From: Clostridiaceae bacterium | GTDB taxonomy: Bacteria > Bacillota > Clostridia > Oscillospirales > Acutalibacteraceae | Assembly (NCBI GenBank): GCA_016285645.1 | Contig: JAEERC010000060.1 | Span: forward strand, 1-53,733 | Length of the DNA stretch: 53,733 bases | Direction: 5' to 3' | Shown here: positions 16,253-20,006 of the stretch, piece by piece | Layout: every line of letters starts with the position of its first letter | How positions within the stretch are numbered: the stretch's first letter is position 1 | Notes under the pieces: generated by a model | What the model was told of the DNA's origin: nothing | Databases searched by the model: none | Seen by the model: the letters and a program-made list of their open reading frames with translations, nothing else | Program-made: the position numbers and the translations under genes

Positions 16253-18604
16253 ATGGATTTTCCGCAGATTTTCTACAAGGCAACCGATGAGTTCAACACC
16301 TATGAAAAGCACGTAAACGCGCCGCTTATCCGCAAGGTTTACGAAACGGGGGATTTCGAAAAGGCGGAGATTCTCGTGAGCGGTCTCGGCTTTTACGATC
16401 TTTTCGTAAACGGCAAAAAAATCACCAAGGGGCTTCTCGCGCCCTATATTTCCAACCCCGATGACATAGTCTGTTTTGACAGTTATGATGTAACGGATTT
16501 GTTCATAAACGGAAAGAACACCGTCGGCCTCATTCTCGGCAACGGTATGCAGAACGCTCCGGGCGGCAGAATCTGGGATTTTGACTCCGCTTCTTTCAGA
16601 AACGCCCCGTGCTTCGCCTTTTCGCTCACCGTTACGGATAAAAACGGCGAAAAGACGGTTTATGAGGCGGACACCTCTTTTAAATGCAAGCCCTCGGCTA
16701 TTCTTTTTGACGATATAAGAAGCGGCTGCTTCTATGACGCGAACCTCGAAACAGACGGCTGGCTCGAAGCGGATTTTGACGACTCGGACTGGGCGCCCGT
16801 TAAAAAAGCGGAAAACCCGCGCGGCGAGCGCAGACTCTGCGAGGCGGATCCGATTGTGATAACGGAGGAGATAAAGCCCGTAAAAATATTCGACGCGGTT
16901 TACTGCGAGGATTTTCACTGCAACGGCAGAATGGTGTTTGACACGCCGTTTAAATTCGATTTCAGGGGCAAAACGGGAAAGGTCTTTGATTTCGGCATAA
17001 ACACGGCGGGCATTTTCCGCCTTAAAATAAACGGCAGAAAAGGTCAGAAAATCTATATAGCCACCTGCGAATACATAAACTCAAAGGGCGAGCCCGCCAA
17101 CAACAACATAGCAAATTTCTACCCCGCGGATTACTGCCAGGCGATGTATTATGTATGCAGGGGAGAGAAAGACGAAATATTTGAGCCCTCCTTCTCATAT
17201 TACGGCTGCCGCTACGCCGTGGTGTTCGGGCTCGATGAGGAGCAGATAACGGAAGAAACGCTCGTTATGCTCCGCGCCAATTCCGACCTCAGGGAGAGGG
17301 GAAACTTCGAGTGCAGCGACCCTGTTATGAACGCCCTGCGCGATATGAGCAGAGTCAGCGATTTAGCCAATTTCTATTACTTCCCGACCGACTGCCCGCA
17401 CAGGGAGAAAAACGGCTGGACGGGCGACGCCGCCGTCTCCTGTGAGAGAGTTGTTCTCACCCTTACCGCCGAAAAAAGCTACAGGGAGTGGCTTCGCAAT
17501 ATATGCAAAGCCCAGCGCATTGACGGCGCTCTGCCGGGCATTATTCCCACGGGCGGCTGGGGCTTCAGGTGGGGCAACGGTCCCGCGTGGGACAATGTGC
17601 TCACCGAACTTTGCTGGCAGATTTACCGCCTGAGGGGCGACCTTACTCCCGCGCGGGAGTGCAGTGAAAGCATACTGCGCTATCTCTCATATATCTCACA
17701 GAAGCGCCGCCCCGACGGGCTTATAGCCATAGGCCTCGGCGACTGGCTTCAGCCGATGAAGGGCGCGGGCGATCCCACAGCCCCGCTTGAGTTTACCGAC
17801 AGCGTTATTTCAATGTATATCTGCCGCAAAGCCGCCGCTCTGTTTAAAGCGCTCGGTCTTGAATCGCATTATGTGTTTGCCGCGGGTCTCTGCGATTCGT
17901 TCAGGACTGCAATCAGGGAGAATCTTGTTGATTTTGCCACAATGACCGTCAAATGCCGCTGCCAGACCGCCCAGGCGTGCGCGATTTATTACGGTGTGTT
18001 TGACGACTGCGAAAAGCCGCAGGCGGGCAGGGTGCTCCTTGACCTTGTTCACGAAAAGGGCGACCACTTCGACTGCGGTATGATTGGCATGCGCGTAATA
18101 TTCCACGTGCTCTCCGACCTCGGCGAGGGCGCGCTCGCGTATAAAATGATAACACGAAAGGATTACCCGTCCTACGGCTGCTTTATCGATTACGGCTACA
18201 CGGCTCTGCCCGAGGATTTCAGACCGGAAAACGAAATCGATTTCCCCGCGTCGCTCAACCACCACTTCTTCGGCGATATAGTCAGCTGGTTTATCCAGAG
18301 AGTCGCCGGCATAAGGGTAAACCCGAAAAACCGCGACTGCAACGAATTTGAAATAACTCCCGATTTTATCGAATCGCTCAGCTTTGCCAAAGCGTATTAC
18401 GACGCTCCCTGCGGAACGGTTAAGGTCGAGTGGAACAAAGAGGGCGATAAGGCGGTGCTTAAAATTGAGTGCCCGGAGGAGGCGAAGGGCGCAATACGCC
18501 TGCCTCTCGGCTGGACCTTCGTTATTGATGAAACACAGCGCGCTCTTCACGGCTCGGCTTATACCGTGCTGAAAGCGGGCGAATACAGAGCCGAAAGAAA
18601 GTAA
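16253..18604 (+). CDS. Alpha-L-rhamnosidase, GH78
   Basis: A 783-residue cytosolic enzyme (no signal peptide) that removes terminal alpha-L-rhamnose. The N-terminal beta domain carries the family features LVSGLGFYDLFVNGKKI and LGNGMQNAPGG. The (alpha/alpha)6 catalytic domain has DCPHREKNGWTGD at residues 380-392, which supplies the conserved acidic residues Asp380, Glu385 and Asp392. A C-terminal beta-sandwich ends the chain. It is somewhat shorter than many GH78 proteins (about 900-1000). AAAGGAG precedes ATG 16253. Co-transcribed with the MFS permease, which fits uptake of small rhamnosides and internal hydrolysis. Confidence 0.92.
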   Translation: MDFPQIFYKATDEFNTYEKHVNAPLIRKVYETGDFEKAEILVSGLGFYDLFVNGKKITKGLLAPYISNPDDIVCFDSYDVTDLFINGKNTVGLILGNGMQNAPGGRIWDFDSASFRNAPCFAFSLTVTDKNGEKTVYEADTSFKCKPSAILFDDIRSGCFYDANLETDGWLEADFDDSDWAPVKKAENPRGERRLCEADPIVITEEIKPVKIFDAVYCEDFHCNGRMVFDTPFKFDFRGKTGKVFDFGINTAGIFRLKINGRKGQKIYIATCEYINSKGEPANNNIANFYPADYCQAMYYVCRGEKDEIFEPSFSYYGCRYAVVFGLDEEQITEETLVMLRANSDLRERGNFECSDPVMNALRDMSRVSDLANFYYFPTDCPHREKNGWTGDAAVSCERVVLTLTAEKSYREWLRNICKAQRIDGALPGIIPTGGWGFRWGNGPAWDNVLTELCWQIYRLRGDLTPARECSESILRYLSYISQKRRPDGLIAIGLGDWLQPMKGAGDPTAPLEFTDSVISMYICRKAAALFKALGLESHYVFAAGLCDSFRTAIRENLVDFATMTVKCRCQTAQACAIYYGVFDDCEKPQAGRVLLDLVHEKGDHFDCGMIGMRVIFHVLSDLGEGALAYKMITRKDYPSYGCFIDYGYTALPEDFRPENEIDFPASLNHHFFGDIVSWFIQRVAGIRVNPKNRDCNEFEITPDFIESLSFAKAYYDAPCGTVKVEWNKEGDKAVLKIECPEEAKGAIRLPLGWTFVIDETQRALHGSAYTVLKAGEYRAERK

Positions 18605-18609
18605 AATGA

Positions 18610-18735
18610 TATTCGGAGATGTTCGCAAAGACGACGAAAGCAATTACACTGCCGCCTTATTCGTTCGTGACAATCGAAATCGAGCCGCAGGCGGATTTGA
18701 ATGATTTAATATTCCCTGAAATAAATTTTTCTTAG
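18610..18735 (+). pseudogene. Probable 3' remnant of a glycoside hydrolase gene
   Basis: Immediately after the rhamnosidase stop, an open frame of 41 codons reads through KAITLPPYSFVTIEIE (18637-18684) and a short tail to TAG. 'ITLPPYSxVTIEI' is the typical last strand of arabinofuranosidase-like and related GH C-terminal domains. There is no room for a catalytic domain upstream and no properly spaced ribosome site (GGAG abuts an internal ATG). I read it as the scrap left by deletion of a second glycosidase gene. It could also be a chance open frame. Confidence 0.4.
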
Positions 18736-18876
18736 ATAAACCCTGACAAAAAAGATTTTTGTGTTTTTCTTAAAATTCCGAAAATCCCACTTATTGTGGT
18801 TCAAAACTTTGACCGCGCATATATCTTGTGGTAATATGTAACAGTAGAAGTGGAATGAAAAAAGTATCAAAAAAAT

Positions 18877-18942
18877 CGAACATTTGTATTGACAAACAAT
18901 TGTTCGAGTGCTATAATAGCACTTGTAAGGAACAAATGTTCA
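18877..18942 (+). promoter_or_regulatory. Strong promoter with LexA-box-like palindromes
   Basis: Consensus TTGACA (18889-18894), 17 bases, TATAAT (18912-18917). Around it lie three GAAC/GTTC-type sites: CGAACATTTGTATT (18877-18890, half-site), CAAACAATTGTTCG (18893-18906, between -35 and -10) and GGAACAAATGTTCA (18929-18942, just past the start point). The last has a perfect GAAC-N4-GTTC core and fits the Gram-positive SOS box CGAACRNRYGTTYG at 12 of 14 positions. The -10 also sits inside a second palindrome, AGTGCTA-TAA-TAGCACT (18907-18923). SOS control is an inference. Confidence 0.6.
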
Positions 18943-18974
18943 CGCTTTTTGAACGAATGAAAAGGAGGCACAAA

Positions 18975-19247
18975 ATGACACTCGCATTGTTAATCAGGTC
19001 TGTGCTCGAGCTTGCGGCAATCATTCTCTTCATTGCCGGTCTTGTAAACGAAAAGAAACTCATCGCTTTTGAAAATAAACTCATGAGGGCGGTTGCGATT
19101 CACATCCGCAATCACCGCCGCCGCAAAGCGCTTGAGAAGAAGCTCGCAGCCACCGCCGCCCAGACAAGGGCGCCCGAAGCTTTACCCGAGGAGAAAATCG
19201 CGGTAACAGTACTTGCCGCGGAACCTGTGATGTATCACATCGCGTAA
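18975..19247 (+). CDS. Small single-pass membrane protein, possibly SOS-induced
   Basis: A 90-residue protein of unknown family. Residues 2-24 (TLALLIRSVLELAAIILFIAGLV) form one membrane helix. A basic amphipathic stretch follows (RAVAIHIRNHRRRKALEKKL), then an Ala/Pro/Glu-rich tail. ATG 18975 is set by the excellent AAAGGAGG at 18961-18968; longer in-frame versions would run through the promoter. The gene stands alone, between a consensus promoter with LexA-box-like sites and a strong terminator. The size, topology and putative SOS control recall division inhibitors such as YneA, but there is no LysM domain and no sequence similarity I can recognise, so function is unassigned. Confidence 0.75.
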   Translation: MTLALLIRSVLELAAIILFIAGLVNEKKLIAFENKLMRAVAIHIRNHRRRKALEKKLAATAAQTRAPEALPEEKIAVTVLAAEPVMYHIA

Positions 19248-19285
19248 CAGTTGACTATTTCCTTTTTCATACTTACCTTTCTTCC

Positions 19286-19320
19286 GAAAAGCCGTCGTCA
19301 AGACGGCTTTTTCTTTTTTG
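19286..19320 (+). terminator. Terminator of the small membrane protein gene
   Basis: A 10-bp stem (AAAAGCCGTC 19287-19296 with GACGGCTTTT 19302-19311), 5-nt loop, then TTCTTTTTTG. Confidence 0.9.
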
Positions 19321-19325
19321 TTTTT

Positions 19326-19437
19326 AAGTGTTGGACAGCCTGAACAACAGGGCTTTTATCCGTTTTTGCACTTTAAGTCAACACTTTTGCATTTTGTCAA
19401 AAAACCGTTTGACTTTTTTGTGCAATACTGCTATATT
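19326..19437 (+). promoter_or_regulatory. Promoter and inverted repeats before the LytTR locus
   Basis: TTGACT (19409-19414), 17 bases, TATATT (19432-19437). Two inverted repeats precede or overlap it: AAGTGTTG (19326-19333) with CAACACTT (19379-19386), and GTCAAA (19396-19401) with TTTGAC (19408-19413), the latter covering the -35. LytTR proteins bind paired short sites upstream of promoters, so these are candidate sites for the regulator encoded downstream. Confidence 0.55.
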
Positions 19438-19472
19438 CATAACACACTAATTCAAAAAGGCAGGTGAGCAAA

Positions 19473-19583
19473 GTGAGACAGTATTCTGATAAGCACAATC
19501 GACCCGCGCAGGAGCGCAATTACTATATGATTGTTTATCGGAGGAGTGATTTTGCCTGCCCGTATGGTGTCTTTTTATCTTAG
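19473..19583 (+). CDS. Candidate micro-ORF (36 aa) leading the LytTR locus
   Basis: A 36-codon frame from GTG 19473 to TAG 19583, with AGGTGAG placed 6 bases upstream. The predicted peptide is basic and aromatic (ERNYYMIVYRRSDFACPYG), with one Cys and no hydrophobic leader or double-Gly cleavage site. It lies between the promoter at 19409-19437 and a terminator at 19600-19632, so it would be the most abundant product of the transcript. It could be a regulated peptide, a leader peptide or simply untranslated RNA. No family recognised. Confidence 0.4.
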   Translation: MRQYSDKHNRPAQERNYYMIVYRRSDFACPYGVFLS

Positions 19584-19599
19584 GGCAGGGAATATTTTC

Positions 19600-19632
19600 G
19601 GCATCTCCGGTTTCGGAGATGCCTTTATTTTT
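19600..19632 (+). terminator. Terminator/attenuator between micro-ORF and lytTR gene
   Basis: A 10-bp stem (GGCATCTCCG 19600-19609 with CGGAGATGCC 19614-19623), 4-nt loop, then TTTATTTTTTTG. The lytTR start is only 27 bases past the stem, and no separate promoter is evident, so read-through probably supplies the regulator. Confidence 0.88.
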
Positions 19633-19649
19633 TTGAAGGAGGGATTATT

Positions 19650-20006
19650 ATGAGCGGCACAATAACACTCAGGTGGAGAAACAGACGAACAGCGGTGCGT
19701 ATAGACGACATCCTTTATATTGAAAGTTATAACAGACATCTGAGTGTTTTTACACTGAACGGAAAAACCGAAGTGGTCGGGAAATTGAGCGAAATGGCAG
19801 AACATCTGCCCGAAACCGATTTTTTGTGCATACATAAGAGTTTTGTTGTGAATATGAAATATATTACCGAGATTGACGGCAGGGGAGCGGTGCTGACGGA
19901 CGGTTCAGTTCTTCCGGTAAGTGTAAGAAGAAAAACAGCGGCTATAAAAAAATTCGACTCATACTGCGATATGAGAGGGGTAGGAAAATGTTTGTTTTGG
20001 GAATAA
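19650..20006 (+). CDS. Stand-alone LytTR DNA-binding regulator
   Basis: A 118-residue protein that is almost entirely one LytTR domain (residues about 5-105). Features seen: the strand-rich core, IDDILYIESYNRHLSVF, the C-terminal part FLCIHKSFVVNMKYI, and RRK near the C-terminus. There is no receiver domain, so it is not a two-component response regulator. GAAGGAGG precedes ATG 19650. The next gene overlaps its end by 19 bases and encodes a small membrane protein. This is the arrangement of LytTR regulatory systems such as HdrRM and BrsRM of streptococci, where the membrane partner holds the regulator inactive. Targets may include its own promoter region. Confidence 0.88.
   Translation: MSGTITLRWRNRRTAVRIDDILYIESYNRHLSVFTLNGKTEVVGKLSEMAEHLPETDFLCIHKSFVVNMKYITEIDGRGAVLTDGSVLPVSVRRKTAAIKKFDSYCDMRGVGKCLFWE

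Follow-up and report, generated by a model that had tools for sequence, protein, structure and literature searches.

The window, by which we mean the whole stretch of DNA analysed (53,733 nucleotides), carries a short reading frame for a 90-residue protein with a predicted membrane helix. It is preceded by a main promoter with LexA-type palindromes and, further upstream, by a second promoter with a pair of NrdR-type boxes. The features of the locus are as follows.

18784..18799, + strand: NrdR-type box A, ATCCCACTTATTGTGG; by matrix score, one half of the best 31/32-bp pair of the window
18809..18837, + strand: upstream promoter P1, TTGACC-17-TAATAT, promoter score 9/12; a TTGACA..TATAAT-like block is kept in relatives
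18816..18831, + strand: NrdR-type box B, CGCATATATCTTGTGG, inside the P1 spacer, 32 bp from box A
18877..18889, + strand: LexA box 1, CGAACATTTGTAT, 5' of the -35 element; kept in 20/20 same-genus loci and of the type of the genome's own lexA and recA boxes
18889..18917, + strand: main promoter P2, TTGACA-17-TATAAT, promoter score 12/12
18894..18905, + strand: LexA box 2, AAACAATTGTTC, in the P2 spacer; kept in 20/20 same-genus loci, frequently missing in other genera
18930..18941, + strand: LexA box 3, GAACAAATGTTC, beyond the start point; kept in 20/20 same-genus loci
18962..18968, + strand: ribosome-binding site AAGGAGG, read from the sequence; GGAGG lies 5' of the start codon in 20 loci compared
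18975..19247, + strand: reading frame of the 90-aa membrane protein; predicted helix 3-24, long basic helix 26-64 and disordered tail ending ...YHIA
19239..19244, + strand: C-terminal Ile-Ala, a degron-like end; terminal Ala in 80/82 members found by promoter vs 19/360 control reading frames
19288..19319, + strand: intrinsic terminator, 11-pair stem and T run

The original prediction for this DNA had described a promoter with three LexA-box-like palindromes driving a lone 90-residue protein with an N-terminal membrane helix, followed by its own terminator. This description is borne out by the 12/12 promoter and the location of boxes 1 to 3, and by the reading frame, its hydrophobicity (highest in the 17-mer that begins at residue 5) and the hairpin. 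The basic segment it placed behind the helix is real, and its coordinates were correct to within 1-2 bases. The terminator lies outside the range given then (18877-19247), and the second promoter with the NrdR-type pair (18784-18837) was absent from that description. Further downstream, at 19400-19640, we noticed by eye a promoter-like stretch, a short frame with a GTG start at 19473 and a terminator-like hairpin; these elements precede a LytTR-like gene at 19650, and the frame is perhaps a leader peptide.

The genome of the window (2.63 Mb in 73 contigs, 97.88% complete) has its own lexA (L001), identified by a match to TIGR00498, whose promoter holds AAACAAATGTTT and GAACAAATGTG. At its recA (L028/L042), GAACATTTGTTT begins 36 bp 5' of the start codon. 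The boxes at both genes are of the same type as those of P2. They are nearly identical to the C. difficile lexA and recA boxes AGGAACAAATGTTTGC and GAGAACAAATGTTTGT, for which the cited passage reports binding of LexA in SPR (PMC4234289). Among three findings that would speak against SOS control, the original prediction had named a different consensus at lexA and recA and loss of the palindromes in close relatives. We looked at these two, and neither holds: the lexA and recA boxes are of the same type, and every one of the 20 same-genus loci compared (the window counted; 20 fetched of 29 places with a protein match) retains boxes 1 to 3, while flanking sequence diverges.

LexA boxes also precede the gene in 25 of 26 further homologues, three of which belong to the same genus. 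Among 80 further and mostly weaker hits, a box lies within 200 bp upstream in 59, compared with 7/80 in a control stretch of 200 bp from the start codon onward. The remaining 21 lack a box by this upstream criterion. To call these 21 of 80 homologues LexA-free would be too strong, as overlong reading-frame calls explain at least four of them: L223, L225, L234 and L294 carry boxes inside the called frame. Taken by itself, GAACAWWTGTT is no commoner in the 2.6-Mb genome than its reversed control pattern (seven matches against nine), so a single box carries no meaning. The weight of the sequence comparison lies in the cluster of three boxes at one promoter, in the lexA and recA boxes and in the conservation within the genus. 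Together, the operators of the same type at lexA and recA and their retention in relatives strongly support SOS control as originally proposed, and we consider the family gene almost certainly a member of the SOS regulon.

The promoter can also be used alone as a query. We searched for its 18-mer CGAACATTTGTNTTGACA in a collection with one genome per species (84,980 species), which gave at least 116 stretches. A reading frame was called a family member if it was complete, shorter than 170 aa and scored above 8 bits with a profile of the first 62 residues; the lower-scoring L195 and L206 were excluded from the 82 members. Among the matches listed, 82 of 117 occurrences of the 18-mer lead to a complete member, and the promoter type can therefore be said, at the level of sequence, to mark this protein family. 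The other occurrences listed include members truncated at the end of a contig, hits in phyla unrelated to these hosts, the front of a lexA gene in L133 (TIGR00498) and the front of Pol IV-type genes in L184 and L207. The hosts of the listed matches are named as assemblies of uncultured Clostridia, Oscillospiraceae, Ruminococcaceae, Bacillota and Candidatus Fimenecus, and many bear sample names that refer to animal gut. On viral contigs the 18-mer occurs at three places, and no family member was seen behind them.

With the protein as query, 28 of the 45 genomes of the genus matched, its own included (10 of the 15 of good quality), at 29 places; many of the 17 genomes that gave none are incomplete. 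Across the taxonomic family, a profile detected relatives in 100 of 398 genomes, spread over 40 of 135 genera. An order-wide sample, whose share outside the family is unspecified, gave matches in 14 of 394 genomes, all of them its own or from the same family. The family is fast-diverging. The protein has no match in Pfam or NCBIfam and PHROGs gave nothing useful; 80 members run against Pfam produced scattered weak matches, with no single family in more than 4/80. No LysM protein was found in the genome of the window at its 97.88% completeness. The missing library matches and the lack of LysM support the earlier view that this is a new type of protein.

The aligned members are 68-108 aa long, with their hydrophobicity maximum right at the N-terminus. 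Lys and Arg average 0.06 before the helix and 8.6 in the 30 residues after it. Because the count after the helix exceeds that before it in 80 of 80 members, the positive-inside rule predicts an N-out/C-in protein with a cytoplasmic C-terminus. The original prediction had assumed the topology of YneA, SidA and DivS. In that form this is not supported, since the C-termini of YneA and SosA are extracellular (PMC13396833, PMC6851548). In a predicted structural model (mean pLDDT 76, pTM 0.38), residues 3-24 and 26-64 form helices and the tail is disordered; a PDB fold search with this model returned no match.

In the 80-member alignment, invariance is confined to Glu33 and the C-terminal Ala90. The invariance of the last column partly reflects the choice of rows, as the alignment omits L170, L181 and L201 of the 82 and L170 ends in Ser. 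Counted over all 82 members found by promoter, a terminal Ala is present in 80, and 76 of these end in Val-, Ala- or Ile-Ala, whereas 19 of 360 control reading frames from the same loci end in Ala. Among the weaker hits, operator-less paralogues included, 57 of 77 complete proteins do so. Proteins that end in a small hydrophobic residue and a free Ala are of the kind taken by ClpXP, and also by C-terminal processing proteases such as CtpA. The terminus thus probably acts as a degron, as judged from its conservation, and because the tail is predicted to be cytoplasmic, our guess is ClpXP rather than CtpA.

The second promoter, P1, carries two TTGTGG-type boxes that start at 18784 and 18816, 32 bp apart with a spacer of 16 bp. 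According to the passage cited, an NrdR site comprises a pair of 16-bp palindromes, with 15-16 bp between them in three of the four bacteria compared (PMC12051234). For scoring, a matrix was built from 27 boxes out of 30 nrdG loci of the genus, with none from the family gene; the three loci that gave no training box are L065, L070 and L071. What we take to be the NrdR consensus guided the choice of these training boxes and also served for consensus scans. By this nrdG-trained matrix, the pair at P1 is the best 31/32-bp pair in the whole 53.7 kb, with a score of 2.7 and a runner-up at -7.0. The score of 2.7 is reached by 0 of 2647 tiles of the window and by 0 of 2445 tiles of 19 other loci of the genus. 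The window's own pair is weak all the same, with 2.7 for both boxes together vs an average of 23 for each trained box.

The signal is clearer in relatives. Among 21 same-genus upstream regions, a 31/32-bp pair reaches p<0.01 against shuffles in 20, and the 31/32 spacing beats the other spacings (21 tried) in 18; L012 is without a pair. Within 150 bp upstream, a pair scoring at least -7, a threshold equal to the top of the window background, was found in 42 of 81 family promoters vs 0 of 81 shuffles, with one shuffle per promoter; one of the 82 had too short an upstream region. Ten of the 42 were judged to belong to the genus of the window, and many relatives' pairs are canonical, such as TTGACAAACACAATATATTGTGATAATCT in L125. 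The pair also occurs without LexA boxes, in L276 and L282 by the scan and in L101 by eye. A scan by consensus count was less clear than the matrix: the top pair lies elsewhere in L009 and L013 and is not significant in L012 and L017. A two-motif search of the genome with at most one mismatch gave 9 matches vs 6 for the control, the pair of the window being the only exact one. Chance as the origin of the paired TTGTGG motif was considered and is ruled out by the shuffles, tiles and spacing controls.

The genome has a nrdR gene (L041, TIGR00244 over the cut-off) and nrdG (L040, TIGR02495), behind which an ATP-cone reading frame was taken by eye as nrdD. Upstream of nrdR itself, the NrdR-like boxes AAACACAATAAATATGGTATAAT and GCATATATTGTGC were seen by eye, which suggests autoregulation. 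From the box comparisons, control by NrdR appears very likely for the family as a whole and likely, to a lesser degree, for the copy in the window. The text cited presents NrdR as a regulator that seems to be dedicated to ribonucleotide reductase (PMC12051234); a known exception is topA of P. aeruginosa (PMC4409342).

The genes next to the family gene were inspected in 21 chosen loci, and nine upstream neighbours from these were analysed for identity. They are ObgE (four), YebC (two), dUTP diphosphatase (one), a phosphoglycolate-phosphatase-like protein (one) and one with no name, and no nrd gene is among these nine. In L114, L138 and L213 the upstream neighbour and the family gene share direction, and therefore the NrdR-type pair there could act on the family gene alone. 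Where the neighbour is divergent, the pair might act on it as well.

Both sets of boxes could instead belong to other regulators. That the LexA-like palindromes are bound by some other repressor, with the gene outside the SOS response, draws on the fact that LexA binding in this organism is read from sequence and that the bare motif is not enriched in the genome; with the same boxes at the genome's own lexA and recA, and the same 18-mer promoter in front of lexA in L133, we regard it as highly improbable. A regulator other than NrdR at P1 is somewhat easier to imagine, as the left half-sites are weak in the genus of the window and box B overlaps the extended -10 element. Many relatives, however, hold canonical ACACAATATATTGTGT-type boxes at 31/32 bp, these resemble the boxes of the nrdG promoters of the genus (27 of 30 loci gave one), and the spacing agrees with the 15-16 bp between 16-bp boxes given for three of four bacteria (PMC12051234), so that we consider this alternative improbable and retain NrdR as the candidate regulator of P1.

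A third palindrome, AGTCC-N8-GGACT, occurs in 59 of 81 family promoters vs 8 of 81 shuffles. The distance from its start to LexA box 1 downstream is 33-35 bp in 53 of these 59 promoters; such a nearly fixed distance is seen, for example, in L106, L108, L114, L121 and L189. It was looked for in the window and not found there, and it is left out of the reading of the window gene. In the genomes of 25 hand-picked relatives, the exact palindrome is present in 9, at 17 places vs 13 for the reversed control; this genome count is not above background, and the count alone proves nothing. Sixteen places were fetched, of which six lie before the family gene and four before an SOS-type operon with LexA boxes. 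Single places lie before an SbcD-like nuclease (L330), before an AAA ATPase (L318) and, in L323, before a WYL-WCX regulator that has another AAA ATPase divergent to it; these three are suggestive only. The palindrome possibly marks an SOS-independent damage regulon. Its regulator, we guess, is a WYL-type damage regulator of the DriD kind.

What the sequences themselves establish is the gene family, the layout of its promoter, the retention of the boxes and the constraint on the C-terminus. On the basis of these operators and of the predicted protein, we propose with slight preference that the product of the family gene is a checkpoint effector with a short lifetime, which DNA damage and dNTP shortage would induce and which most likely inhibits division. 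In healthy cells, LexA on the three boxes would keep P2 off, and DNA damage would release P2 through LexA cleavage. P1, covered by the NrdR box pair, would fire when dNTPs fall and NrdR leaves, as the boxes suggest. The protein is predicted to enter the inner membrane with its tiny N-terminus outside and the basic helix inside. By analogy, its membrane and juxtamembrane helices would then act on a division protein and delay division until replication recovers. With the Val/Ala/Ile-Ala end as a presumed degron, the protein would vanish once the stress ends. The division step is put forward by analogy with YneA, SosA, SidA and DidA, and because no LysM protein, hence no YneA, was found in the genome; on this analogy, we lean modestly towards inhibition of division by the protein. 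In a wider version, a new checkpoint family from a single family of Clostridia works as one integrator of signals from LexA, from NrdR and, in a large number of relatives, from a further regulator that is possibly an SOS-independent damage sensor of the WYL type; one rapidly degraded protein would stop division at the cytoplasmic face of the membrane, whereas YneA and SosA work on the other face, and would be cleared by ClpXP through its C-terminal Ala. We consider this full version doubtful.

The same features would also fit an effector of DNA stress that leaves division alone, with the basic helix as a membrane tether for the nucleoid, for a repair complex or for ribonucleotide reductase, or with the protein slowing replication or segregation. 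The average of 8.6 Lys and Arg in the 30 residues after the helix, a basic helix 26-64 predicted with fair confidence, the NrdR-type boxes that tie the gene to dNTP supply and a predicted topology unlike that of YneA and SosA all argue for it. The SOS-controlled single-pass membrane proteins of comparable or lesser size, YneA, SosA and SidA, however, stop division according to the passages cited (PMC13396833, PMC6851548, PMC4211646), and the genome search found no LysM and so no YneA; we regard a role outside division as possible though not the probable one. A toxin of the TisB/DinQ kind, which would depolarise the membrane and render the cells dormant, is quite unlikely. The gene resembles DinQ in that a small SOS-controlled membrane protein has a single helix (PMC3567139), but the members are 68-108 aa with a long predicted cytoplasmic helix, and the constraint on the terminal Ala suggests fast turnover, not a stable toxin. 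An Rfam search of 18500-19700 found no antitoxin family, only two unrelated matches far below the cut-offs; an undescribed antisense RNA is possible. Our preferred reading thus remains the short-lived division inhibitor.

Prediction and operator sequence give the protein traits of the SOS membrane inhibitors, namely small size, a single membrane pass and LexA control, and this functional class is already known. The libraries and literature searched yielded neither the family itself nor a reversed topology of the kind predicted here, and neither a promoter with LexA and NrdR boxes together nor the conservation of the terminal Ala. The literature search recognised no paper on this family or on control of a membrane protein by LexA and NrdR together. 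YneA and ChiZ share the small size and the single N-terminal membrane helix, and YneA is also SOS-induced and rapidly degraded. The basic tail of the present protein is predicted to be cytoplasmic, and no family match connects them. The yneA gene adjoins lexA, whereas here lexA lies at 121849 of contig 5 and the family gene on contig 2. YneA further requires an extracellular LysM and acts on FtsW (PMC13396833), and the family protein is without LysM.

SosA of S. aureus is similar in several respects, with 77 aa, a single helix, no LysM, SOS induction and a turnover tied to the C-terminus; the SosA C-terminus lies outside the cell and is probably a substrate of CtpA (PMC6851548). The C-terminus of the family protein is predicted to be cytoplasmic and would suit ClpXP. 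SidA and DidA of Caulobacter are small membrane division inhibitors under LexA and SOS-independent DriD control, respectively (PMC4211646). They are two genes, whereas here one promoter region joins LexA boxes, the NrdR-type pair and the third palindrome in many relatives, and in one genome the third palindrome also precedes a WYL regulator gene. The likeness to the NrdR regulon lies in the paired 16-bp boxes with a 15-16 bp spacer over a promoter; the targets described in the source cited are ribonucleotide reductase genes and P. aeruginosa topA (PMC4409342), and the literature searched reports no membrane protein that NrdR and LexA control jointly.

The SOS-type division inhibitors in the portions of the literature found are LexA- or DriD-driven. 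If the gene is under both LexA and NrdR, the dNTP supply would be tied directly to a cell-cycle checkpoint, and the family may fill a gap, as the search of this genome revealed no protein with LysM and hence no YneA. The protein is likely a cell-cycle checkpoint protein of a new kind. With defined operators at its promoter, a short product and a degron candidate of just two terminal residues, the system is directly testable.

Some related genes were noticed beside the family. The paralogues L230, L277, L279, L288 and L291 are without LexA or NrdR boxes and, by eye, seem to lie close behind other genes, in one case behind an excisionase-like reading frame; these paralogues are possibly cargo of mobile elements. 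The terminal Ala is missing in four of these five. At L029 (own genome C36, ~21453), a LexA-type box lies in a TTGACA promoter before a gene for a sigma-70 region-4 protein, followed by a small 'ELGEEYLAQA' protein, as a second SOS-type operon. Similar small proteins with LexA-type boxes and AGTCC-N8-GGACT were seen by eye in L325-L328. At L030 (own genome C63, ~63250), a GAACAAATGTT box on the minus strand stands directly 5' of a 79-aa protein (MVRKVYVDVV...) that belongs to no Pfam family and is possibly the product of another SOS gene.
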